Assembly (NCBI RefSeq): GCF_017094505.1
Contig: NZ_CP064787.1
Span: 2,666,001-2,730,000, forward strand
DNA: 64,000 bases
Direction of reading: 5' to 3'
Origin: Halapricum desulfuricans
GTDB taxonomy: Archaea; Halobacteriota; Halobacteria; Halobacteriales; Haloarculaceae
The notes beneath the pieces are model-generated. The model saw only the letters and a program-made list of their open reading frames with translations, was not told the DNA's origin and did not search any database. Of the stretch, positions 3,361-21,091 are shown piece by piece; position 1 is the stretch's first letter; each line of letters starts with the position of its first letter. The position numbers and the translations under genes are program-made.

Positions 3361-7838
<4,478 letters not shown>

Positions 7839-7864
7839 CGGCGACGTCCGGGCCGTTTTTTCAT

Positions 7865-7909
7865 CAACGGTTTTCGGGAGCGCGCTCGTCGCGCGACCCA
7901 AAAAGGTTG
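7865..7909 (+). repeat. Two-stem 3'-region element, gyrA copy
   Basis: Between the two gyrA tails lies a short structure. An outer arm, CAACGGTTTTC, faces AAAAAGGTTG, and the inner GGGAGCGCG faces CGCGCGACCC across CTCGT. The arrangement (arm, T tract, G-rich inner stem, GACCC, A tract, complementary arm) matches the longer elements behind the radical SAM gene and argF in the same orientation relative to the gene. The core is shorter here, so homology is less certain than between the other two. Confidence 0.5.
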
Positions 7910-7911
7910 AA

Positions 7912-8001
7912 GGGAGTCGTTATTATGGACGTCGAGGACGACGACAGCGTCGCGTGTCTTGACGTCCTGCCGGCAGAGACACCCACAGACCAAGAGTAGC
8001 G
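7912..8001 (+). repeat. Duplicated gyrA 3' end (second tail)
   Basis: Bases 7912-8001 repeat 7751-7840 with a single difference, CTG to CTT in a leucine codon. The copy holds the last 28 gyrA codons ([19 protein letters not shown] and on), the stop codon and three bases beyond it. It is offset by 161 bases and has no start or ribosome site of its own, so it is not a gene. Sequence after 8001 is unrelated to that after 7840. The TnpB element begins about 90 bases further on. Confidence 0.95.
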
Positions 8002-8084
8002 AGTAGATAGGTGAAATCGACGTTTCACCGATCGTATTCGATTTCCGGTTCGAGCCACAGACTGCGATCATAGCGGATACAGCG

Positions 8085-9452
<1,368 letters not shown>

Positions 9453-9477
9453 GCTTACGGATCGATCGACCGCCGTT

Positions 9478-9912
9478 TTGGTCGTGCTCGCGCTCGTCGG
9501 GTTCGCACTGATCGCGGCACCGGTCGCGTCGCCGCCGGACGTCCCCGAGGACCGAATCGAGTACTACGTCGAGGACGGCTGGATGGACAACGAGGATCAG
9601 GTGAATCTCGCGTACGCGAACCTCACCGAAGCCGAACGCGCGGTCTTCGACGAGGCACGACAGACGAACGAGAACACAAGTAGCGGGACGACGGTCAACG
9701 CCTCAGCCGGTGACACCCCCGAGTCGCTAACGCCGCCACCGGACAGTATCAGGCTCTACAACGTCCGATACGACGGGGAGTGGTACCTCTTGCAGGTCAG
9801 ACATCTCACCTACGAGGTAGACTTCGTGACACAACAGCTCCCGCGAGTCGGATCGATGGCCGTCGGCGTCGTGTGTCTCGTCGGGGCCGCGTATCGGCGG
9901 TTCGCTGTCTGA
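9478..9912 (+). CDS. Membrane-anchored protein of unknown function, probably 5'-truncated by the IS element
   Basis: The frame opens only 26 bases after the TnpB right-end hairpin and its first plausible start is TTG at 9478. It begins directly with a hydrophobic segment (LVVLALVGFALIAAPVAS). A polar Asp/Glu-rich domain of about 95 residues and a second hydrophobic helix (VGSMAVGVVCLVGAAYRRF) at the C-terminus follow. The start without an N-terminal cytoplasmic part, and the residues DRSTAV readable just before it, suggest the original start was lost to the insertion. I do not recognise the family. Confidence 0.55.
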   Translation: MVVLALVGFALIAAPVASPPDVPEDRIEYYVEDGWMDNEDQVNLAYANLTEAERAVFDEARQTNENTSSGTTVNASAGDTPESLTPPPDSIRLYNVRYDGEWYLLQVRHLTYEVDFVTQQLPRVGSMAVGVVCLVGAAYRRFAV

Positions 9913-9971
9913 TCGGCGCGCGCTTTCGCACGACTTTTGGGTATGCCCCAATTATAGGGGGTTACGACACG

Positions 9972-10967
9972 ATGATCTCCAAGGGTTGCGAGCAGTGTGC
10001 GAAAGGCGGCAAGATGGTGATTTTCGTCTACGGGTACTGCGATCAGCGCGACTGTTTCTACTGCCCCCTTGGGGAGAACCGCAAGAACGTCACCGACGTC
10101 TACGCCAACGAGCGGAAAGTCGAGGAGGACGAGGACATCATCCGCGAGGCCGAGCGCATGAGCGCGATGGGGTCCTCGATCACCGGCGGCGAACCACAGG
10201 AAGTGATGGACCGGACGACCCGCTACATCTCGCTGCTGAAAGACGAGTTCGGCGATGACCACCACATCCACCTCTATACGGGGATCACCGGCGGTCGGGA
10301 GAACATGCGCCGGCTGGCCGAGGCCGGGCTGGACGAGATCCGCTTTCACCCGCCGCTCGAACAGTGGGGAGAGCTGCACGGCACCGAGTGGGAGGAGATC
10401 CTCTACATCGCCCGCGAGGAGGGAATCACGCCAGCCTTCGAAATTCCGGGCATCCGGCCTGAGACGGAGTTCCTCGAGTTCATCGACGAGGGAGCCGCCG
10501 AGTTCTGCAACGTCAACGAGTTCGAGATGTCTCACGGCAACTTCCGTCGGATGCAAGAGGAGGGCTACGAGCTCCGGGAGGGCCACATGAGTGCCGTCGA
10601 GAGCGGCCGCGAGGAGATCCTGGACGTGATGGGCGACCACGAGAAGGTCTACTTCTGTACGTCCGTGTTCAAAGACGCCGCACAACACCGCCGCCGGCTC
10701 AAGCGGATGGCCCGCAACGTTCGTCGTCCCTTCGACGAGATCACCGACGACGGGACGCTCGTCTACGGCAAGGCGACAGTCGATCCCGAGCGGTTCGAAG
10801 AGCTGGGCGTCCCGGAGGAGTACTATACCGTCAAGTCCGAGCACGTCGAGATCGCCTGGTGGCTCTTAGAGGAGATGGTCGACGAGGGCGACGTCGAACG
10901 TGGCGAGATCGTCGAGCAGTATCCGACGGTCGACGGAACCGTTGTTGAGCGGACACCAGTGGCGTAG
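9972..10967 (+). CDS. Radical SAM protein, COG2108-like
   Basis: The 331-residue protein opens MISKGCEQCAKGGK and carries three cysteines, C23, C28 and C31, in CDQRDCFYC, followed by PLG. This is a CX4CX2C spacing rather than the canonical CX3CX2C. SSITGGEPQ supplies the GGE motif that binds the SAM amino group. The layout resembles the uncharacterised archaeal group related to pyruvate formate-lyase activating enzymes. The frame is open upstream of 9972, but the chosen ATG gives the motif-bearing N-terminus. The substrate is unknown. Its last nine codons and stop are repeated twice downstream. Confidence 0.8.
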   Translation: MISKGCEQCAKGGKMVIFVYGYCDQRDCFYCPLGENRKNVTDVYANERKVEEDEDIIREAERMSAMGSSITGGEPQEVMDRTTRYISLLKDEFGDDHHIHLYTGITGGRENMRRLAEAGLDEIRFHPPLEQWGELHGTEWEEILYIAREEGITPAFEIPGIRPETEFLEFIDEGAAEFCNVNEFEMSHGNFRRMQEEGYELREGHMSAVESGREEILDVMGDHEKVYFCTSVFKDAAQHRRRLKRMARNVRRPFDEITDDGTLVYGKATVDPERFEELGVPEEYYTVKSEHVEIAWWLLEEMVDEGDVERGEIVEQYPTVDGTVVERTPVA

Positions 10968-11346
10968 CAGACGCCGAACGGCGTGAGGCGATTGACCGGA
11001 ACCGAGTGCAACGAGGTTCCGGCCTTTTTCCCCACGTTTTTGCGAGGAGTGGTAGCCGAGAGAAGCGAGGCTACCCGACGAGGAAAAAGTGGGACTGGGA
11101 CGGTCGTCGAGCGGACACCGGTGGCGTAGCAGACGCCGAACGGCGTGAGGCGGGTCACCGGAACCGAGTGCAACGAGGTTCCGGCCTTTTTCCCCACGTT
11201 TTTGCGAGGAGTGGTAGCCGAGAGAAGCGAGGCTACCCGACGAGGAAAAAGTGGGACTGGGACGGTCGTCGAGCGGACACCGGTGGCGTAGCAGACGCCG
11301 AACGGCGTGAGGCGGGTCACCGGAACCGAGTGCAACGAGGTTCCGG
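10941..11346 (+). repeat. 2.5-copy, 162-base tandem repeat containing the radical SAM gene tail
   Basis: The unit begins in the coding sequence for VVERTPVA and its stop, then continues through about 130 bases of 3' sequence. Copies start near 10941, 11103 and 11265. The third stops at 11346, exactly at the stop codon of the converging sugE gene. The three tails encode the same peptide. The real gene uses GTT-GTT and CCA, while both downstream copies use GTC-GTC and CCG. This accounts for the whole 10968-11346 gap, which has no other gene. Confidence 0.93.
11031..11093 (+). repeat. Two-stem 3'-region element behind the radical SAM gene (first copy)
   Basis: The outer arms CCCACGTTTTT and AAAAAGTGGG face each other. 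Inside, CGAGGAG and CCCGACGAG flank a perfect inner stem, GGTAGCC with GGCTACC, closed by a loop holding CGAGAGAAGCGA. A second identical copy lies at 11193-11255. The same plan with different but still complementary arm sequences occurs behind argF (19929-19988, 20095-20154) and in shortened form behind gyrA. It may act as a terminator or 3' processing structure; that is inference. Confidence 0.6.
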
Positions 11347-11670
11347 TCAATGTCCGCCGGACGTGAGGTTGAGACCGACGATCCCGACGACGATCACGCC
11401 GATGAAGGCGACGCGGGCGAGCGTCGCGGGCTCGTCGAGAAGCACGATTCCGAGTGAAGCGGTCCCGACAGCACCGATTCCGGTCCACACCGCATACGCC
11501 GTCCCGACGGGCAACTCCTGGACGGCGTGTGCGAGCAGGACCATACTGACGAGCAGTGCGGCGACAGTTCCGAGCGTCGGGAGCGGCTTCGAGAGCCCGT
11601 CGGAGTACGCAAGGCCGATCGCCCACGCGATCTCGAACAGTCCCGCAACGAACAGCACGATCCAGGACAT
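11347..11670 (-). CDS. sugE: Small multidrug resistance (SMR) family transporter, SugE-like
   Basis: The 107-residue protein is nearly all membrane, with four helices. It has the family glutamate in WIVLFVAGLFEIAWAIGLAYSDG (E13), the WTGIGAVGTASLGIVLLDEP signature in helix 3 and GIVGLNL in helix 4. SMR proteins form dimers that export cationic compounds or guanidinium using the proton gradient. The W-A-x-x-L-A-Y-S-D-G start and length fit the SugE/Gdx side, but substrate cannot be assigned. Its 3' end abuts the tandem repeat of the converging radical SAM gene. Confidence 0.88.
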   Translation of the reverse strand: MSWIVLFVAGLFEIAWAIGLAYSDGLSKPLPTLGTVAALLVSMVLLAHAVQELPVGTAYAVWTGIGAVGTASLGIVLLDEPATLARVAFIGVIVVGIVGLNLTSGGH

Positions 11671-11679
11671 ATCGACCCC

Positions 11680-12114
11680 CTATCGCTCGCCGACGACCCA
11701 CTTCTGGCTGTAGCGCTGCCCGCAGCTACAGACCGCGTAGGCGTGGACGACGTCACCCTCGGCGTAGATCCCGCCGACCTCGTCGTTCTGTTCCTCGGCG
11801 AACGCGAACACGACACGCGTGGTGTGCTCCGATTCGGGGTCGTCCTCGAGAGCGGGACAGGTGCCGCCGGTCAGGTCCGGTTCGATCGTCCCCTCAGTCC
11901 CCATGGCGGCTTGGGCCAGTTCCATCGGGTCGGTGCCGGCGGCGTTCTGGAACGCGTTGCGGCCGTTCTCTCCCGGGAGAACGAGGACGACGCCGCTCTC
12001 GACGGGTTCCGCGTAGTCGTCCAGCGCGTCGAGGTTCTCGACGGCGTCCTCGTGCAGGAAGAAGGCGACGTCGTCGGGTCGGTCGCCGGCCAGGAACTCG
12101 GATCGCTTGCTCAT
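11680..12114 (-). CDS. Haloarchaeal conserved protein (DUF5807-like)
   Basis: The 144-residue acidic, soluble protein starts MSKRSEFLAGDRPDDVAFFL and ends with AYAVCSCGQRYSQKWVVGER, where a CxC pair may bind metal. The reading frame is open far upstream, but that part is antisense to the glmU-like gene. From memory it resembles a haloarchaea-restricted family named DUF5807; I could not check this. It starts just upstream of sugE, ten bases apart, on the same strand, so the two may be co-transcribed. Function is unknown. Confidence 0.75.
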   Translation of the reverse strand: MSKRSEFLAGDRPDDVAFFLHEDAVENLDALDDYAEPVESGVVLVLPGENGRNAFQNAAGTDPMELAQAAMGTEGTIEPDLTGGTCPALEDDPESEHTTRVVFAFAEEQNDEVGGIYAEGDVVHAYAVCSCGQRYSQKWVVGER

Positions 12115-12225
12115 GCCCGTCACGAGTCGATCCGCGTGGAAAAGTGGTCCGATGCGGACAAGCGAAGTACGACTTCGAGGTTCGGATCCCGGGAACTTAT
12201 TCGAGAGCGCACAGTGGCTCCGGGC

Positions 12226-13407
12226 ATGCAAGTCGTCATCCTCGCGGCGGGTCAAGGTACCCGCATGCGACCGCTGACAGAGTCGCGGCCGAAGCCGATG
12301 TTGCCAGTGGGGGACCGGCCGCTGGTCGCGCACGCGGCCGACGCGGCCGTCGACGCCGGCGCGAGCGAACTCGTGATCGTCGTCGGCTACGAAGCCGAGG
12401 CAGTCCGGGCGTACTTCGGCGGACAGTATCGCGGCGTGCCGGTCACGTTCGCGGTCCAGGACTCCCAGCAGGGGACGGCCGACGCCGTCCGGGCCGCCAG
12501 CGAGTACCTCGATGGGTCGTTCGCAGTGCTGAACGGCGACAACCTCTACGATCCGGAGACCATCGAGACGCTGCTGTCGTCCGGGCCGGCACTGGCCACC
12601 CGCCGCGTCGCCGATCCGTCGAACTACGGCGTGATCTCGGTCGAGGAGGGGCGCGTGACCGGGATCGTCGAGAAGCCGGACGAGCCGCCGACCGACCGCG
12701 CCAACACCGGCGCGTACGTCTTCCCGGCGACGGCTCGCGAGTGGCTGGACGTCCCCGAGAGCGAGCGCGGCGAGTACGAGATCACCGACGTCGTCGCCCG
12801 CGTGATCGAGGCGTTCGACGTGACGCCGGTCGAACTGAATCGGTGGCTCGACGTGGGCCGCCCCTGGGAGTTGCTCGAGGCCAACGAGTGGAAACTCGGC
12901 GATCTCGAACGGCGGATCGACGGCGAGGTGAGCGGTGACGCCGACCTGCGGGGATCCGTCGTCGTCGAGGAGGGCGCGACCGTCGAACCGGGCGTCGTCA
13001 TCGAGGGACCAGCGCTGGTTCGCTCCGGCGCGGAAGTGGGTCCGAACGCCTACATTCGCGGGGCGACGCTCCTCGGGGAGGACGCTCACGTGGGCCAGAG
13101 CGTCGAGGTAAAGAACAGCGTGGTCATGGCCGACAGCGCGGTGCCGCATCTCTCCTACGTGGGCGACAGCGTCCTCGGTCGCGAGGTGAACTTCGGCGCG
13201 GGGACGAACGTCGCGAATCTCCGTCACGACGGGCGAGACGTCCGGATCACGGTCAAAGGCGAGCGCGTCTCGACGGGGCGTCGGAAGTTCGGCGTCGTCG
13301 TCGGCGACGGCGTGAAGACGGGTATCAACACGAGCCTGAACGCGGGCGTGGTCCTCGCCGAGGGCGCACGGACGGAACCCGGCGAGTCGGTGACGCGCGA
13401 TCGATAG
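12226..13407 (+). CDS. glmU: Bifunctional sugar-1-phosphate nucleotidyltransferase/acyltransferase, GlmU-like
   Basis: The 393-residue protein starts with the nucleotidyltransferase signature LAAGQGTRMRPLT followed by KPMLPVGD. The mid region keeps NGDNLYD for metal binding, and EKPDEP and NTGAYVF for substrate binding. After about residue 230 it becomes a left-handed beta-helix of hexapeptide repeats (GSVVVEEGATVEPGVVIEG; later GAGTNVANLRHDG). It fits archaeal enzymes that make UDP-N-acetylglucosamine or a nucleoside-diphosphate hexose, but the exact sugar is not determined by sequence. It supplies activated sugars for glycosylation, consistent with the glycosyltransferase next to it. Confidence 0.88.
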   Translation: MQVVILAAGQGTRMRPLTESRPKPMLPVGDRPLVAHAADAAVDAGASELVIVVGYEAEAVRAYFGGQYRGVPVTFAVQDSQQGTADAVRAASEYLDGSFAVLNGDNLYDPETIETLLSSGPALATRRVADPSNYGVISVEEGRVTGIVEKPDEPPTDRANTGAYVFPATAREWLDVPESERGEYEITDVVARVIEAFDVTPVELNRWLDVGRPWELLEANEWKLGDLERRIDGEVSGDADLRGSVVVEEGATVEPGVVIEGPALVRSGAEVGPNAYIRGATLLGEDAHVGQSVEVKNSVVMADSAVPHLSYVGDSVLGREVNFGAGTNVANLRHDGRDVRITVKGERVSTGRRKFGVVVGDGVKTGINTSLNAGVVLAEGARTEPGESVTRDR

Positions 13408-13500
13408 CGAGGACGCGGCGGCACGATGCGTGTGAACGGCTATCGAGCCGCGATGTGACATTTCGAGACGTTTTTAGTCGCTGGATGGGGTATGTAGCGT

Positions 13501-14403
13501 ATGGAACTTTCCGTGGTCGTCCCGACGCTCAACGGCCGGGACCGGCTCGCGGGCACGCTCGATGCCCTCGCGGATGCGGTCCCGGAGGCCGAGGTCGTCG
13601 TCGTCAACGGTCCGTCGGCCGACGGGACGACCGGGATGGTCCGCGAACGCGAGGACGTGGACGTCCTCGTCGAGATCCCCGACCGATCGGTCACGGCGGC
13701 GCGCAACGCCGGCTTCGACCACGCGAGCGGCAGCGTCGTCGCACTCGTCGATCACGGGCTCGCCGTCGACGAGTCGTGGGCCGAGGCAGTCCGAACGGGA
13801 CTCGCGGAGGCCGACGTCGTCACTGGCCCGACACACCGGCCGCGACGCGCCGGTGCGGCGACGGAGACGATCGAGACCCGGACCGTCGCGGGCCGGGAAG
13901 TCACGTACTTCAACAGCGGGAACGTGGCGTTCGATCGGGCCACTCTCGACGCGCTCGACGGCTACGACGAATACCTCGAGGTCGGCGGGTCACGGGACCT
14001 GGCCCACCGACTCGCCGACAGCGAGTTCCGCGTCGAGTGGACCCAATCGATGGCCGTCGAGCGGACCTACGGGGCCGACGGCGGCGAGCCACAGCGCGAC
14101 TGGCGGTGGAAGTACCGGTCGCTCGCCTACCGACTGGCGAAAAACTACGGGACTCATCCCACCGTGTTCCGACGACTGGCCGGTCACGCCGCCAGCGACG
14201 CCGCCGGTGCACTCAGAGACGTGGTCCGCCGGACGACCGGACCCTCGGAGTGGCTGGCGACCGGCCGCGACGTGCTTTCGGGGGCAGTCGTGGGGCTCAA
14301 AGACGGACTGTCCGCACGGGCGCGTGATCGCTCCCGAGCGCGCAACCCGCACGGCACGAGCGAGCGGGCGGAACGGGCCGTCTCGGTGTACGACTGGCGG
14401 TGA
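13501..14403 (+). CDS. Glycosyltransferase family 2 protein
   Basis: The 300-residue protein begins MELSVVVPTLNGRDRL, the GT2 nucleotide-sugar-binding start. VVVNGPSADGT and VTAARNAGFDHASGSVVALVDHG follow, where the DHG replaces the usual DxD metal site. FNSGNVAFDRATLDALDGYDE in the middle matches the acceptor side of GT2 enzymes. No membrane helix is evident, so it is probably cytoplasmic or peripherally bound. It follows the GlmU-like gene by 93 bases on the same strand. Donor and acceptor are unknown. Confidence 0.82.
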   Translation: MELSVVVPTLNGRDRLAGTLDALADAVPEAEVVVVNGPSADGTTGMVREREDVDVLVEIPDRSVTAARNAGFDHASGSVVALVDHGLAVDESWAEAVRTGLAEADVVTGPTHRPRRAGAATETIETRTVAGREVTYFNSGNVAFDRATLDALDGYDEYLEVGGSRDLAHRLADSEFRVEWTQSMAVERTYGADGGEPQRDWRWKYRSLAYRLAKNYGTHPTVFRRLAGHAASDAAGALRDVVRRTTGPSEWLATGRDVLSGAVVGLKDGLSARARDRSRARNPHGTSERAERAVSVYDWR

Positions 14404-14733
14404 TCACTCGAGTTCGTCGGCGATCCAGCTCCGTGCAGCCATCGCCGTCGGGAACCCGAGCGTCGGGATCGACAGCGTCGCGACGTGCTGTAACGTCCCG
14501 GGCTCGACGCCTTCCTCGAGTCCGCGCCTGACGTGGGAGTGGACGGCACCTTCCGATCGCGCGCCGACCGCGAGCGCGAGCTTGACGAGGCGCTTGGTCT
14601 CCCCGTCGATCGGCCCGGCCTCCGCACAGGCCTGTCCGAGGTCGCTGTACTGTTCCCAGACCTCGGGGTGTTCGCGCGCGAGTTCGTTCGGAATCTCCGG
14701 CAGTTCGTCAAGGGACGCAGGTTCGTCTGCCAT
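14404..14733 (-). CDS. Carboxymuconolactone decarboxylase (CMD) family protein
   Basis: The 109-residue all-helical protein has the CMD pattern ETKRLVKLALAVGARSEGAVHSHVRRGLEEGV. The histidine is kept, but the Cys-x-x-Cys pair of AhpD-type peroxidase partners is missing (EGAVHSH). It is therefore more like the non-redox members of the superfamily, and its activity cannot be predicted. Its stop codon directly abuts the stop of the converging glycosyltransferase gene (TGATCA). Confidence 0.85.
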   Translation of the reverse strand: MADEPASLDELPEIPNELAREHPEVWEQYSDLGQACAEAGPIDGETKRLVKLALAVGARSEGAVHSHVRRGLEEGVEPGTLQHVATLSIPTLGFPTAMAARSWIADELE

Positions 14734-14831
14734 ATCCGTGGTTCGGCCTCCACCGTGTTGTAGTTTGCCATAGTGTAAGTCACCGAATACGAATAGTCAC
14801 TGTTTTGCACGCGAGACACGACGTGCGGACG

Positions 14832-15104
14832 ATGAGCGACGAGCGCGACGAGGGATACGTCCACCGACCGGACAGCTCCGTGGAGTCTACGCGGGAATTC
14901 GGGTGGCGGGGCTGGCTGCTGGTCGGCGCACTCGTGATCTCGTTTCTGGTCGTCCCCTGGGCGCTGATCCTGTTTTCGTCAGCCCGCGAGGCGGTCGCGG
15001 CCGTCGGCCTCCCATGGCGGGAGACGTTTCTGGTCGTGCCCCTGATCCCGGCGGTGGGGCTCGGCGTGCTGGGCGTCTGGGCCGCGCTGGCCGCGCGCCG
15101 GTAG
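14832..15104 (+). CDS. Small two-helix membrane protein of unknown function
   Basis: The chosen ATG gives 90 residues: a polar, acidic 30-residue N-terminus (MSDERDEGYVHRPDSSVEST), then two hydrophobic segments (WLLVGALVISFLVVPWALIL and FLVVPLIPAVGLGVLGVWAA). The upstream ATG at 14805 would add nine unlikely residues. It lies 49 bases before the histidine kinase on the same strand. I do not recognise a family. Confidence 0.7.
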   Translation: MSDERDEGYVHRPDSSVESTREFGWRGWLLVGALVISFLVVPWALILFSSAREAVAAVGLPWRETFLVVPLIPAVGLGVLGVWAALAARR

Positions 15105-15153
15105 CGTCGGCGAAACGATTTACCTCGGGGCGTTCAAGCACACAGCCACCGGA

Positions 15154-16812
15154 ATGCTCTCGTCGCTGTACCTGCCGCTGGTGTTGCTCGCCGCCGTCGC
15201 TGGATCCGGGCTCGCGTTGTTCGCCTGGCTGCACCGCGAGACGCCGGGTGCGGCACCGCTCGCGCTCTTTCTGCTCGCGGCGAGTCTCTGGTCGCTGACC
15301 GACGCCGTCGGCGTCGCCTCGGGGACGCCGCGCTTCTGGGCGTCGCTGAAGCTCTCGATCGCGACGGTGGTCCCGCTCGCGTGGCTCGCGCTCGTCTTCG
15401 AGTACACCGGTCGCGAGCGCTGGCTCTCCGGACCCCGGCTGTTCGCCCTCGTCGTCGAACCGGTCGTCGTCTCGGCGCTCGTCTGGACGAATCCCGCCCA
15501 CGTCATCTGGCGGGCGTCGAGTCGGGTCGTCCTCGTCGACGGCTACTACGTCTTCGACGGGACGCCGGGGCTGGCCCTGTGGGGCCATCAGGTGTACGCC
15601 TACGGGCTGATCGCGATCGGCGCGGCATTGCTGGTCGGTATGCTGTGGCGGAGCGACGACGTCTTCCGGGACCAGAGCACAGCGTTGCTGGCGGCGATCG
15701 CTGTCCCGATGATCGTCAACGCGCTGTATCTCTTCGGATACACGCCGGAAGCGGTCGATCCGACAGGGACCGCGTTCGTCCTCTCCGGGGCGGTCCTCGC
15801 GGGGGCAATCCTCTATGAACACCTGCTCGACGTCGCCCCTGCGACCCGGGAACTGGGACGGGAAAAGCTGATCGGCGAGCTCGAGGACCCGGTCGTCATC
15901 GTCGACGCCGAACGGCGAGTCGTCGACCTCAATCCGGCCGCGGAGTCGCTGCTCGGGGTCTCGGCGGACGACGCTATCGGCGCGGAACTGACGGTATTCG
16001 AGCCGGCACTCGTCGGGATCGACGACGGCGACGAGATCACGCTGGAGCGGGAGGGGCGACGCTGTTATTACGACGTGCGCGTCTCGCAGCTTGATCGCGC
16101 CCGCGGGACGATAACCGGCCGGATCATCAGCCTCCGGGACGTGACCGAGCGGACCCGCCGCGAGCAGCGCCTCGACGTGATGAACCGACTCTACCGGCAC
16201 AACCTCCGAAACGAGATGAACGTCGTGCGCGGCAACGCCGAGCTGCTCGACGCGCGCCTTGAGACGCCGGCTCACCGCGAACACGCGGAAACGATCGTCG
16301 ACACGGCCGACGAGGTGATCGCGCGAAGCGAGAAGATCAGTGCCCTCTCCCGGTCGGTCGAGGACCAGTCGACGCGGCCGATCGATCTCACCTCGATCCT
16401 GACTGCGCTCGTCGAGTCGTTCCGGGAGGAGTTCCCCGAAGCGACGATCGCGCTTGAGACACCCGAGACGTGTCGAGTGGTCGGCGACCCGTCCATCGAG
16501 ATCGCGATACAGGAAGTGCTGGAAAACGCGCTCGAACACGCAGACCGTCCGGACCCGACAGTGACGGCCGAACTCGCGACCGACGGAGACGACGCCCGAC
16601 TCGAGGTCAGCGACGACGGGCCGGGGATCCCCGAACAGGACCTCAGGGCGCTGGAAGCGGGCGCTGAGACGCCGATGGAACACGCGAGCGGCGTCGGCCT
16701 GTGGCTGGTCACCTGGGCGATCGAACGCGTCGGCGGGGCGGTCGCGTTCGACACTGGCGAGACGGGGACGACGGTGACGGTGACACTCCGGACGGTCGAT
16801 CCGTCGGCGTGA
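15154..16812 (+). CDS. Membrane sensor histidine kinase (7TM-PAS-HisKA-HATPase)
   Basis: The 552-residue protein has seven hydrophobic segments in its first 230 residues, matching the 7TM region common to haloarchaeal kinases. A PAS-like domain (VVIVDAERRVVDLNPAAESLLG) follows, then the phosphoacceptor box RLYRHNLRNEMNVVRGNAELL with its histidine. The ATPase has the N box QEVLENALEHA, the G1 box DDGPGIPE and the G2 box GVGLWLV. It should autophosphorylate in response to a membrane or cytosolic signal. No response regulator lies nearby, so it is an orphan and its partner is unknown. Confidence 0.9.
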   Translation: MLSSLYLPLVLLAAVAGSGLALFAWLHRETPGAAPLALFLLAASLWSLTDAVGVASGTPRFWASLKLSIATVVPLAWLALVFEYTGRERWLSGPRLFALVVEPVVVSALVWTNPAHVIWRASSRVVLVDGYYVFDGTPGLALWGHQVYAYGLIAIGAALLVGMLWRSDDVFRDQSTALLAAIAVPMIVNALYLFGYTPEAVDPTGTAFVLSGAVLAGAILYEHLLDVAPATRELGREKLIGELEDPVVIVDAERRVVDLNPAAESLLGVSADDAIGAELTVFEPALVGIDDGDEITLEREGRRCYYDVRVSQLDRARGTITGRIISLRDVTERTRREQRLDVMNRLYRHNLRNEMNVVRGNAELLDARLETPAHREHAETIVDTADEVIARSEKISALSRSVEDQSTRPIDLTSILTALVESFREEFPEATIALETPETCRVVGDPSIEIAIQEVLENALEHADRPDPTVTAELATDGDDARLEVSDDGPGIPEQDLRALEAGAETPMEHASGVGLWLVTWAIERVGGAVAFDTGETGTTVTVTLRTVDPSA

Positions 16813-16850
16813 TCGGCGGTATTTTGACCGATCAGGCCCGAGTCACCGCT

Positions 16851-17324
16851 ATGTCACTTGCTGCGGACACCCGAGAGGCGGTTCGAACACACCCGTTCGT
16901 CTACGAGGGACTGCGTGCGGGGATTCTCAACTACTCCGCCGCGGCCCGGTTCCTGGACGTCGGCGAGACCGACGCTGTCGCGGCGGCACTGCGGCGCTAC
17001 GCCGAGGAGCTGCCCGAACGCGATACCGACGAGTGCGAACTCCGAGTGACGATGCACAGCGGCGTCGGTCCCGCCGAGGCCAGCGACGAGCCGCTGCTCG
17101 TGGTGGGCGAGACGGCACTGGCGGCCAACGGCGGCGACGCGACGGCCGTCGTTGCGACCGGCGACGTCGGTCCCGACTTCCTCCGGACGGTGCTGGGCCG
17201 GTGTGCGGCCGCCGAGATCTCGGTCGAAGCTGCGGCGGTGGGGCCTGACGCGCTCGTGGTCGTCGTCGGCCGCCGGGACGGGCCGGACACGGTGCGGCTG
17301 ATCGAGCAAAGCGGAGCGCAATAG
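16851..17324 (+). CDS. Haloarchaeal conserved protein, regulatory-like (unknown function)
   Basis: The 157-residue protein starts MSLAADTREAVRTHPFVYEG and has an N-terminal helical part (RAGILNYSAAARFLDVGETDAVAAALRRYAEEL) that resembles a small helix-turn-helix or helical bundle. A C-terminal alpha/beta part with two VVVATGDVG and ALVVVVGRRDG strands recalls ACT-like folds. The upstream in-frame extension overlaps the kinase gene and is rejected. It precedes cysS by 43 bases on the same strand, so co-transcription is plausible. Function is not known to me. Confidence 0.72.
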   Translation: MSLAADTREAVRTHPFVYEGLRAGILNYSAAARFLDVGETDAVAAALRRYAEELPERDTDECELRVTMHSGVGPAEASDEPLLVVGETALAANGGDATAVVATGDVGPDFLRTVLGRCAAAEISVEAAAVGPDALVVVVGRRDGPDTVRLIEQSGAQ

Positions 17325-17367
17325 TGACTCCGACGGATTGAAACGCTGGCTCGCGTAGTGACGGGCA

Positions 17368-18852
17368 ATGACGCTGCGCGTGAGTAACACGCTGACCGGC
17401 GAGCGCGAGGAGTTCGAACCCGAGGATCCCGACGCCGTCCGGTTGTACTACTGCGGGCTGACGGTCTCGGACCCGCCGCATCTGGGTCACGCCCGCGGGT
17501 GGGTCCACGTCGACGTAATGGACCGGTGGCTCTCCTGGCTTGGCTATACCGTCCACCACGTCGAGAACTTCACCGATATCAACGAGAAGATCGTCGCCCG
17601 CGTCGGCGAGGACGGCGACAGCGAGGCCGCGGTCGCCGACCACTACATCGGAGAAGTCATCCGGGCGATGCGAGACCTCAACCTCCGGCGAGCGGAAGTC
17701 TATCCCCGCGTCTCCGAGCACGTCCCCGAGATCGTCGATCTGGTCGAGACGCTGATCGAGAAGGGTTACGCTTACGAGTCGAACGGCTCGGTCTACTTCG
17801 ACGTGACCGCGTTCGAGGAGTACGGCAAGCTCTCGAATCAGGACGTCGACGAACTGCAAGCGCAGGGCGACGAGGCCGAACAGGCCGAGAAGCGCAACCC
17901 CGCGGACTTCGCACTCTGGAAGGCCGACGGCGTCGATCCCGAGGAGATAGCCGACCACCAGCACCCCGAGGCCGCGCCCGCCGAACAGGCCTGCGAGACC
18001 GCCGAGACCTGGGACTCCCCGTGGGGGGAGGGACGGCCCGGCTGGCACATCGAATGCTCGGTGATGAGCATGACCCATCTCGAGGAGACGCTTGACATCC
18101 ACGTCGGCGGGCAGGACCTGGTCTTTCCCCACCACGAGAACGAGATCGCCCAGAGCGAGGCCGCCACGGGCCAGACCTTCGCCAACTACTGGCTGCACGT
18201 CGGGTTGCTCGAGACCAGCGACGAGAAGATGTCTTCCTCGCTGGGCAACTTCGCGACCGTCGAGGAGGCCATCGAGGCGTACGGGACCGACGTGGTCCGG
18301 ACCTTCCTGCTGTCGACGGCCTATCACAGCCGCGCGACCTACAGCGAGGAGACGATCTCGGAGGCACAGGACCGCTTCGAGCGCCTCGAGCGCGGCTACG
18401 AGCGGGCCGTCGAGGCCTGCGACAGCGTCGACGCCCGGACGAAAGTCGACGCCGAGGAGTTGCGCGGGGCGGTCGAGACGGCCCGCGAGGAGTTCGAGGC
18501 CGCGATGAACGACGACTTCAACACCCGCGCGGCGATGGCCGCACTATTAGATCTCGTCGGCGCGGTCAACGCCCACGTCGACGACCGCGAGGAATACGAC
18601 TACCGCGCGCTCAGGCGGGCGATCGAAACGCTCGAGGAGTTCGCCGGCGGCGTCTTCGGCCTGTCGCTCGGCGGGGTCGACGGCGGCGACGTCGAACTCG
18701 CCGAGGACGTGATCGACCTCGTGCTGGACATTCGCGAACGGGAGCGAGCGGCCGGCAACTACGAGCGGGCTGACGAGTTGCGGGACGAACTGGAAGCGCT
18801 GGGCGTCGAAGTCCAGGACACCGACGACGGGCCGGTCGCCCGGATCGAATAG
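17368..18852 (+). CDS. cysS: Cysteinyl-tRNA synthetase
   Basis: This 494-residue class I synthetase charges tRNA(Cys) with cysteine. It has the HIGH-type motif PPHLGHARG (residues 36-44) and the KMSKS-type motif [10 protein letters not shown]. Zinc-site residues include C29 in LYYCGLTV, the cysteine in IECSVMSM and the histidine pair in [12 protein letters not shown]. The DALR-like helical anticodon domain occupies the C-terminus. The insertion around residues 165-220 is very acidic, as expected for a halophile. Confidence 0.97.
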
Positions 18853-18891
18853 CGCCCACAGACTTTTTCCGCTCGCCGACGACCCGCAGAC

Positions 18892-19857
18892 ATGATCGAA
18901 TCGCTCGTCTATCGCAGCGGCACCGTCGAGTCCTACGACGACCTCGGGGCGGCCAGGGCCGCGGCGGGGACGACCTGGGTCCACGCGACGGAGGTGACTG
19001 ACGGAGAGCGCGAGCGGATCCGCGAAGCGTTCGAATTGCACCCGCTGGCGATCGAAGACGTGGCCGACGACGTCCGCGCGAAAGTCGAGGAGTTCCCCGG
19101 TTTCACGTTCGTCCTGCTGAAGACCGCCCGCCTCACTCGCGGAGAGACGACCTTCGAAGAGGAGATCGATACCGCCCCGGTCGGCGTGTTTCTCGGTCGC
19201 GACTGGATCGTCTCGATGACCCCTGGCACGGCCCCGGAGATCGGACGCGTCCGCACTGCGGTCGAATCGGGCGACGAGCGACTGCTCGAGCGCGGCGCGG
19301 ATTTTACAGCCTACCGGATCGTCGACGCGCTCGTCGATCGGTACTTCGACGTGCTTGACGGTATCGAGACGAAAATCGAATCGATCGAAGACGAGGTCGT
19401 CACGTCGACCCGACTGGACGTGCTCGACGAGATCAACGCCGTCCGCCGGGAACTGCTCTCCTTTCGAAAGCTACTCTGGCCCGCCCGCGAGGCCGTGGGG
19501 ACGCTCGCCAGCGGCGATCCGAGACTGGTCGAGGAAGCTACCGAGAAGTACTTCCGCAGCGTCCACGACCACCTTGTGCAACTGGTCGATCTGACTGAGA
19601 CCTATCGCGACCTGGTCAGCGGTGCGCGAGACATCTATCTCAACACTCTCTCCCAGTCGACCAACGAAGTGATGAAGATCCTGACCGTCGTCGCGACTGT
19701 TTTCATTCCACTCACCTTTGTCGCCGGGATCTACGGCATGAACTTCGAGCACATGCCCGAGCTGGGCTGGCAGTGGGGGTATCCCGTCGTGCTGGCGCTG
19801 ATGGCCGCGATTGCCGCCGGGATGATGGCCTTCTTTCGCCACCGCGACTACCTCTGA
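18892..19857 (+). CDS. corA: CorA family magnesium/divalent cation transporter
   Basis: The 321-residue protein has a large acidic cytosolic domain and two C-terminal membrane helices. The diagnostic GMN signature lies at the pore mouth in IYGMNFEHMPELGW, and the C-terminal basic end (FFRHRDYL) is kept. CorA pentamers import Mg2+ (or Co2+/Ni2+). It starts 39 bases after cysS and converges on argF. A hairpin at 19871-19920 immediately follows its stop. Confidence 0.95.
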   Translation: MIESLVYRSGTVESYDDLGAARAAAGTTWVHATEVTDGERERIREAFELHPLAIEDVADDVRAKVEEFPGFTFVLLKTARLTRGETTFEEEIDTAPVGVFLGRDWIVSMTPGTAPEIGRVRTAVESGDERLLERGADFTAYRIVDALVDRYFDVLDGIETKIESIEDEVVTSTRLDVLDEINAVRRELLSFRKLLWPAREAVGTLASGDPRLVEEATEKYFRSVHDHLVQLVDLTETYRDLVSGARDIYLNTLSQSTNEVMKILTVVATVFIPLTFVAGIYGMNFEHMPELGWQWGYPVVLALMAAIAAGMMAFFRHRDYL

Positions 19858-19870
19858 CGCTCGGGTCTGC

Positions 19871-19920
19871 GGGAACAGCGGTGCGGCTTCGCCGCGCCGT
19901 CGTTCGGTCACTCTGTTCCC
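19871..19920. terminator. Hairpin between corA and argF, candidate terminator
   Basis: GGGAACAG at 19871-19878 pairs with CTGTTCCC at 19913-19920, with a nested GCGGC-TTC-GCCGC stem. It lies 13 bases after the corA stop, and beyond the duplicated argF tail for the other strand. It could end transcription from either direction, although no long T run follows on the corA strand. Confidence 0.4.
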
Positions 19921-19928
19921 GAACCGCT

Positions 19929-20090
19929 CCAGCTTTTTCTCGTCGGGTCCGCTCGCTCCGCTCGCGAACCGCTCCTCCAAAAAGCTGGACCAAAAACCCG
20001 GTCGCTCGTCCCTCGCGACCGGTCAAGACGGCTCGGACAACCACACCAGCAATCCTTTCTGGGCATGCAGTCGATTCTCCGCCTGATCCG
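19929..20090 (-). repeat. Duplicated argF 3' end with 3' element (distal tail)
   Basis: This stretch repeats the end of argF at an offset of 166 bases. It holds codons for DQAENRLHAQKGLLVWLSEP and the stop (20023-20025), then about 90 bases of 3' sequence. Against the real gene, the first two codons differ synonymously (GAT-CAG here, GAC-CAA in the gene) and the rest of the coding part is identical. The outer stem CCAGCTTTTT/AAAAAGCTGG at 19929-19988 encloses the conserved CGAGGAG...CCCGACGAG core. Together with 20095-20154 it explains the 19858-20188 gap. Confidence 0.93.
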
Positions 20091-20094
20091 GCAG

Positions 20095-20154
20095 CCACCT
20101 TTTTCTCGTCGGGTCCGCTCGCTCCGCTCGCGAACCGCTCCTCGAAAAAGCTGG
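20095..20154 (-). repeat. Two-stem 3'-region element, argF proximal copy
   Basis: In the argF sense the arm CCAGCTTTTT faces AAAAAGGTGG with one mismatch in the outer five pairs. Inside lie CGAGGAGCGGTTCGCGAGCG and the closing CCCGACGAG. The inner stem pairs GGTTCGC with GCGGACC (one G-T wobble) around CGAGCGGAGCGA. The structure follows the real argF stop by about 35 bases and is the counterpart of the element behind the radical SAM gene. Confidence 0.6.
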
Positions 20155-20188
20155 ACCAAAAACCCGGTCGCTCGTCCCTCGCGACCGG

Positions 20189-21091
20189 TCAAGACGGCTC
20201 GGACAACCACACCAGCAATCCTTTCTGGGCATGCAGTCGATTCTCCGCTTGGTCCCAGACGATTGCGTTGTCGCTCTCGATGACCTCGTCGGTCACCTCT
20301 TCGCCGCGGTGGGCCGGCAGACAGTGCATCAGCTTCCGGTCGGCGACGAGGTCGCTCGTCACCTGGAAGCCATCGAACGCCTGTAGTTTCGCCTCGCGTT
20401 CGTCCTCCTCGCCCATGCTGACGAACACGTCCGTGTAGACGAGGTCCGCGTCAGCGACGGCGACCTCAGGGTCGTGCGTCGTCTCCGGCGCGGTGCCGAG
20501 TTCGTCGGCCCGTTCGAGCACGTCGTCGTCGATACCGTAGCCCTCGGGCGTCGCGACGGTGAGATCGAGCCCGACCATCGCAGCGCCGAGGACGAACGAC
20601 TGGGCGACGTTGTTGCCGTCGCCGACCCACGCGACCCGGACCTCCTCGAACCCGCCGAACTGCTCGCGGATCGTCAGCAGGTCCGCCAGCGTCTGACAGG
20701 GGTGAGCCTCGTCGGTCAGTCCGTTGACGAACGGGACGGTCGCGTACTCGGCGAGTTCCTCGGCGTCCTCGTGGTCGAACAGCCGCGCCATGATGACGTC
20801 GACGTACCGCGAGAGCGCTCGCGCGGTGTCTTTGACCGGCTCGCCGTGGCCGAGGTGGATGTCGTCCGGACCGAGGAAGATCGCGTGACCGCCCAGCTGG
20901 GTCATCCCCGTCTCGAAGGAGACCCGCGTCCGGGTGCTCGGCTTCTCGAAGATCATCCCCAGCGTCTGGTTGTCGAACGGTTCGGTGTCAGCCCCGGCCT
21001 CGTGAGCGGCCTTCAGCTCGGCCGCGCGGTCGAGGACAGTCTCCAGTTCGTCGGGCGTGAGGTCGTCGATGTCGAGCAGGTGGCGTGTCAT
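20189..21091 (-). CDS. argF: Ornithine carbamoyltransferase
   Basis: The 300-residue enzyme converts ornithine and carbamoyl phosphate to citrulline. It has the carbamoyl-phosphate signature FEKPSTRTRVSFE (about residues 49-61), the HPCQ motif in DEAHPCQTLADL and the ornithine loop HCLPAHRGEEV. It is the last gene of the minus-strand arginine cluster, and its start overlaps the lysK stop by four bases. A displaced copy of its last 22 codons and 3' region lies just downstream. Confidence 0.96.
   Translation of the reverse strand: MTRHLLDIDDLTPDELETVLDRAAELKAAHEAGADTEPFDNQTLGMIFEKPSTRTRVSFETGMTQLGGHAIFLGPDDIHLGHGEPVKDTARALSRYVDVIMARLFDHEDAEELAEYATVPFVNGLTDEAHPCQTLADLLTIREQFGGFEEVRVAWVGDGNNVAQSFVLGAAMVGLDLTVATPEGYGIDDDVLERADELGTAPETTHDPEVAVADADLVYTDVFVSMGEEDEREAKLQAFDGFQVTSDLVADRKLMHCLPAHRGEEVTDEVIESDNAIVWDQAENRLHAQKGLLVWLSEPS

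Follow-up and report, generated by a model that had tools for sequence, protein, structure and literature searches.

Behind haloarchaeal genes we observe a covarying, structured element that lies against stop codons. At some genes it stands between the gene's tail and a second copy of that tail. We write this geometry T-E-T', with T for the gene tail, E for the element and T' for the copy. The copies have diverged in a coding-like way, their junctions are shared between species, and there are empty sites. We argue that the element is a two-way terminator that is brought into genes as a tail-flanked cassette via homologous recombination. Termination and mobility are both what we infer from these patterns, and we give the whole reading about even chances.

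The window is the whole stretch of 64,000 nucleotides that was analysed (C1:2666001-2730000 of a complete 2.94-Mb chromosome). It holds five copies of the element: two behind a radical-SAM gene, two behind argF and one behind gyrA. A sequence-only reading had placed these five copies and given their arms and inner stems, and it was right on each point. The closest named match to argF is Halapricum hydrolyticum, in a comparison that may leave out records very near the window. The features are:

7751-7838, plus strand: gyrA tail T, the last 88 nt including the stop codon, which occurs twice
7856-7909, plus strand: gyrA element (T6, arm CAAC, TTTT, inner stem, AAAAA, GGTTG), a divergent member
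7912-8001, plus strand: gyrA tail copy T', identical at 89 of 90 nt; the sole difference is synonymous (CTG/CTT)
10935-10967, plus strand: end of the radical-SAM gene, where T starts
10996-11022, plus strand: radical-SAM hairpin 1, directly 5' of the first T5 (folding z = -4.0)
11025-11093, plus strand: radical-SAM element 1, T5-CCCCACG-T5-hairpin 2-A5-GTGGG (69.3 bits; fold -29.5 kcal/mol, z = -5.7)
11097-11184, plus strand: radical-SAM tail copy T' no. 1, right after the GTGG end of element 1
11187-11255, plus strand: radical-SAM element 2, identical to element 1 (model match)
11259-11346, plus strand: radical-SAM tail copy no. 2, abutting the stop codon of a convergent gene (11347-11670)
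19929-19995, minus strand: argF element 2, arms CCAGC/GCTGG (model match)
20023-20089, minus strand: argF tail copy T' from -67, with the junction GTGG-CTGCC and then GGATCAGG
20095-20162, minus strand: argF element 1, arms GGTCCAGC/GGTGG, with hairpin 1 at about 20164-20187 (model match, folding)

The radical-SAM palindromes, CCCAC-G-TTTTT...AAAAA-GTGGG, span 11031-11093 and 11193-11255. Their layout is CCCAC-G-TTTTT-GCGAGGAGT-GGTAGCC...GGCTACC-CGACGAGG-AAAAA-GTGGG, and the tail-copy unit there is 162 nt long and present three times. The argF layout on the minus strand is CCAGC-TTTTT-GGAGGAGC-GGTTCGC...GCGGACC-CGACGAG-AAAAA-GCTGG, and a stretch of 161 nt occurs twice. At gyrA the order is CAAC(7865)-GG-TTTT-CGGGAGCGCG...CGCGCGACCC-AAAAA-GGTTG(7909), with two copies of a 93-nt repeat. 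The gyrA tail copy is followed by a perfect hairpin (CCCACCCGTGCACGGGTGGG, 8082-8110), beyond which comes a long ORF (8201-9442) of atypical codon usage.

The unit that was first described is real, but it is too small. A scan for T4+...A4+ palindromes in a sample of the same chromosome (40 x 20 kb, which is 27% of the genome, or 29% including the window) found six relatives outside the window. All six have the first TTTTT about 12-13 nt ahead of the second, and a separate hairpin ahead of the first. In full, the unit reads hairpin 1 - TTTTT - CCCCAMG (variable arm) - TTTTT - hairpin 2 - AAAAA - G(G)TGG. We collected 105 elements by model or pattern from G003, G005, G007, G017-G020, G024 and G058. 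In 99 of them no more than 4 nt separate the end of hairpin 1 from the first T5, so this hairpin and the first TTTTT belong to the unit. The 110 nt ahead of the first T5 hold a TTTCAC(Y) box in 60 of the 105, against 6-9 in controls.

Single sequences do not prove the structure, because gyrA and argF fold weakly alone (z about -1.5, and about -1.1 for an argF stretch that omits part of the arms). The proof comes from the family. Alignment A3, made of 44 elements, has a covariation score of 0.208 where shuffles have 0.072 +/- 0.009, and none of 500 shuffles reaches it. Changes on both sides of a pair fill 75 cells against 27.8. When the partners are slid by 1-3 columns the pairing falls from 85% to 40-56%. 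Because the sequences were selected by pattern, A3 has no variation at the T5/A5 pairs or over most of the outer arm, and these are uninformative there. This covariation bears out the proposal that selection acts on structure. The proposal that the outer arms covary is true between lineages, where the pairs are CCCCAMG/GTGG, GCCCACG/GGTGG, GGTCCAGC/GCTGG, GGTGGAGA/GTCCAC and ATCAACGG/GGTTGA, but within the genus of the window the arms are nearly fixed as CCCCAMG/GTGG. When chimeras of hairpin 2 are folded, the native halves beat most swaps (at the median 10% of chimeras are as stable), which is not decisive for any one element. An internal loop, GAGNGGT/ACCCGA, is conserved. A kink-turn was considered for this loop and rejected, since the bulge does not fit.

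The tail copies span a gene's own last 30-130 nt and are placed directly after the GTGG end. Only a few nucleotides separate the A tract or GTGG end from T'. On the hairpin-1 side, 38 of the 105 elements have the end of a gene no more than 200 nt away, and 14 of these 38 have a direct tail copy behind GTGG. The tail of the gene on the other side is copied at 0 of 69 elements (14/38 vs 0/69, p = 8e-8; this and our other p-values are optimistic, since the data sets include phylogenetically related sequences). Genes were called with a codon-usage script written for the analysis. Among gene ends in the genome of the window, a tail copy is found at 3 of the 11 that have an element and at 6 of the 689 that have none (Fisher odds ratio 43, p = 2e-4). 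This test is conservative because gyrA is counted as being without an element; its divergent element is below the threshold of our covariance model, R1, which misses it. The link between element and tail copies that had been drawn from the window is real and strong, both here and in the other genomes.

T-E-T' at argF, radical SAM and gyrA recurs in other genera and families, and at citrate synthase it is found in three genera. The unit is 130-285 bp and contains only the tail and the putative terminator. The second E is often absent. There are also multi-copy arrays, with three tails in gyrA of G001 and argF of G005. The radical-SAM gene of G018 is followed by at least eight tail-terminator units of 171 bp, 100% identical, which run to the end of the stretch examined (L181). 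The start of T' is fixed across several genera (-67 in argF, -74 to -80 in citrate synthase) and differs between families. Some tail duplications occur without the element.

Other repeats were seen. Tandem copies of gene tails without an element are found at L020:15252-15403, L027:2406-2514 and L028:14382-14501, with periods of 38, 59 and 41 bp, and they resemble simple slippage. L020:13577-13808 is an intergenic tandem array with about 8 units of a 29-nt repeat. Gene-tail arrays are found at tRNA genes too. At L042:17526-18013 (C1 about 2407526-2408013) about five copies of a tRNA-Ser gene tail (GGTTCAAATCCCAGCCCCACCG) follow one another, and the spacers between them are about 100-120 nt, one of them of a different kind. 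Tail copies of what is probably a tRNA-Leu (GGGGATTCGAACC on the opposite strand) are found at L015:16940-17290 (C1 about 1176940-1177290), and their spacers have boxes in common with the spacers at tRNA-Ser.

The history of T' looks like that of coding sequence. A neutral T' beside a constrained T should give a synonymous share of about 39%, which is (0.24+0.24)/1.24, where 24% of random mutations are synonymous. In 38 distinct T/T' pairs we count 62 synonymous and 14 non-synonymous codon differences, a share of 82% (p = 3e-14). The changes at codon positions 1, 2 and 3 number 14, 8 and 61. A second set has 34 synonymous to 13 non-synonymous differences, or 29 to 6 minus one 219-nt outlier. 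At least half of the differing stop codons are stop-to-stop changes. Between species the synonymous share is 0.75 for the argF T' and 0.73 for T, and T' has no in-frame stop. The argF junction GTGG-CTGCC and then GGACCAGG (GGACC) is common to at least nine species in several genera, including its filler. Its carriers are Halapricum-like, Haloarcula, Halorientalis, Halosimplex, Halovenus and others. This implies that the junction is old or has been passed around. T' is mostly nearest to the T of its own genome, rather than to the T of other species, which implies that T and T' exchange. The coding-like evolution of the tail copies suggests that recombination at the gene tail carries these signals from genome to genome. 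The non-coding copies would be a frozen record of earlier alleles, and they make gene exchange between haloarchaeal species measurable. In gyrA of G002 and G005 (L193, L194), T and T' encode different C-termini past a common IPA motif, so at these genes a different tail has taken the place of the functional one.

The direction of insertion can be read at citrate synthase. In G003 T and T' do not differ over 74 nt. T ends with TAA and is followed by the element, and T' ends with TAG, directly before the GGGGATG of the gene that comes next. Genus g12 (L369) has no element here, and citrate synthase overlaps the same next gene at TAATG. It is T' that stands in the native, operon-like context, so the tail plus the element is the inserted part. 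At argF of G002 the gene joins directly to downstream DNA that in G005 is found after the last of three tails. Judged from the sequence, this is an empty or collapsed site.

We propose the following route. A unit of gene tail plus E would enter that same gene at its 3' end. The tail it brings, T, would restore the reading frame, and the native tail would be pushed downstream, behind the GTGG end, as T'. When a donor T-E-T' meets a recipient T, one crossover would fall in the gene and the other between the donor T' and the recipient T. E would then enter, and the recipient's own tail would become T'. The arrangement could spread to homologous genes, or be lost from them, by ordinary homologous recombination. 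Spread is possible because T' gives a right-hand homology arm whatever lies downstream. Haloarchaea are polyploid, with gene conversion, with mating and with recombination between species (PMC8223754, PMC10085750, PMC4500145). These processes may keep exchanging T and T', so that T' would stay coding-like. The recombination model, which accounts for more of the observations than the other readings do, would yield coding-like differences, transmission of junctions and precise loss, and would need no shared downstream sequence. It must be noted that it gives no account of the first joining of E to a tail, or of copying on the left-hand (hairpin-1) side only; the forward-only bias of the tail copies is not predicted by pure recombination. 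A T' that is nearest to its own T equally fits gene conversion within the genome.

A wider form of the argument is that there are gene-free mobile units, each a two-way terminator between repeats of one gene's tail, which by homologous recombination enter conserved genes at their 3' ends and disrupt operons in many species. T' would be a portable homology arm, and it would be under coding selection since it is repeatedly the real tail again. We put this forward tentatively. If recombination does move the units, they make up a gene-less mobile element that alters operon structure at gyrA, argF, citrate synthase and radical SAM, all of them conserved genes, and that explains recurrent gene-tail fragments.

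The main rival of the recombination model is slippage duplication with later gene conversion. Replication would pause at the base of the palindrome and the strand would re-anneal in the gene tail, so that tail and terminator are copied in tandem. Conversion in the polyploid cell would keep T and T' alike, E would be an ordinary terminator, and nothing would be mobile. Palindromes are known to cause replication slippage. The arrays of eight or more identical units in G018 and of three tails in G001 and G005 are what such a process should make, and the junctions do fall a few nucleotides beyond the palindrome. Gene conversion is efficient in haloarchaea (PMC8223754). However, a neutral T' does not predict the synonymous share that we find, the second E is often missing, and the citrate synthase T' retains its native context. 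A symmetric palindrome should also copy the tail of the right-hand gene, and it never does in 69 elements. We consider duplication on its own to be possible, though rather unlikely.

The argument that E is a terminator comes from its placement. Elements are enriched between convergent genes. Among the 77 pattern-found elements with genes called on either side, 41 are in convergent, 33 in tandem and 3 in divergent contexts (chi-square p ~1e-17 vs intergenic length). The GTGG end is 1-13 nt from the stop codon of the opposing gene in 57 of the 105 elements, and in general it either has such a position or leads into a direct tail copy of the upstream gene. Orientation to the gene had been claimed to be constant; this is so for the three genes of the window, but fails genome-wide, since these 57 adjoin the stop codon of an oppositely oriented gene. 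A T-rich tract follows soon after the stop codon, as in archaeal U-tract terminators. A hairpin stands directly before the U tract in 99 of 105, as in intrinsic terminators of the bacterial type. A single element fills the gap between two stop codons and has a T tract for each gene. T5C alone gives 95% termination in vivo in Haloferax volcanii (PMC7237163), and the TTTTTCCCC form (the CCCC variant) includes T5C. Given this placement and the termination at T5C, we read the element as a two-way terminator, and this is its most likely function. Transcription from the left-hand gene would meet hairpin 1 and U5, then a second U5 twelve bases further. Coming from the opposing gene, it would meet U5 no more than about 10-20 nt from the stop codon. 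One element would be able to serve both strands because of the long palindrome (arm-T5-hairpin 2-A5-arm).

The H. volcanii terminators (PMC7237163) are alike in having T5 after the gene, T5C as in the CCCC variant, and hairpins upstream of some sites. They are unlike the present family in that here there are two T5 at a fixed 12-nt step and a covarying palindrome that supplies a T5 to the opposite strand. What that study describes are T stretches, individual hairpins and a motif in coding regions, and not this compound family. Haloarchaeal terminators have so far been described mainly as T stretches, and the family adds a large, covarying and apparently two-way class that is open to covariance-model searches.

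An element of this kind could instead act mainly as an RNA 3'-end stabiliser or a small-RNA precursor. Its stable, structured 3' region and conserved internal loop are consistent with such a role, but the palindromy is at the level of DNA and puts T tracts on both strands. The element is also flush with stop codons on either side and is used in convergent pairs, so we find this unlikely. Of the functions first suggested (terminator, RNA 3'-end protector, recombination substrate), the terminator is the most likely, and the protector is unsupported. A recombination substrate fits as well, but the gene tail, and not the hairpin, probably provides the homology.

The tail-flanked cassette has a near parallel in prophage e14 in icd of Escherichia coli (PMC6379469). 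There a supplied tail replaces the gene tail, the native fragment is displaced downstream, and the change is conservative. A supplied tail and a displaced native tail are both seen here in the T/T' geometry and in the polarity of citrate synthase. Unlike e14, our unit lacks genes and an integrase at 130-285 bp, it is found at many target genes, and it brings the same terminator module each time. The unit might still be a non-autonomous integrative element that has the gene 3' end as its attachment site and uses a site-specific integrase as e14 does. The shared geometry with its conservative changes and the fixed T' starts in argF and citrate synthase would fit. However, the unit encodes no integrase, holding only tail and terminator, and the target gene differs each time. 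No common core sequence was seen at the T' starts, whose positions vary between families. This makes an integrative element improbable. Self-primed reverse transcription of the hairpin was rejected as a source of the copies because it predicts an inverted copy and the copies are direct. The REP/BIME sequences of bacteria (PMC2817692) are alike in being dispersed extragenic palindromes, often after genes. Unlike them, the family described here has T/A tracts, a stop-codon-flush position and gene-tail copies, and no transposase was found in the units.

The distribution of the family was examined with model R1, whose E-values are roughly calibrated. In 864 kb of the window's own genome it has 11 matches at E < 1e-3, and all 11 are outside predicted genes. 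There are matches in 49 of 59 relatives. Across the order, 195 genomes from 66 genera were sampled, and 147 of them, in 48 genera, have matches. The sequence-only reading had made its case depend on a covariance-model search finding further copies that are not spread evenly through coding sequence, and the search found a dispersed family that is widespread and intergenic. The exact 13-base motif alone is over-strict as a search and gives 3 matches. Rfam has nothing above the gathering score in 7600-20600, the element sites included. No description of the family was found in the open papers searched, and since only open papers were covered this supports novelty weakly. One representative had no match in plasmids, and 2.9 million viral contigs have 39 exact 17-mer matches, a number estimated to be near chance. 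The 17-mer TTTTTCCCCANGTTTTT has 10 exact occurrences in the window's chromosome, and 9 to 44 with at most one mismatch in each of the five other genomes of the genus. Chance resemblance among GC-rich hairpins bearing T and A tracts is hardly credible and already refuted: the gyrA and argF copies alone do fold only modestly better than shuffles, but a backwards control pattern has one match in total across the 59 relatives against up to 44 matches in a single genome, no shuffle reproduces the covariation, and the model matches 49 of the 59.
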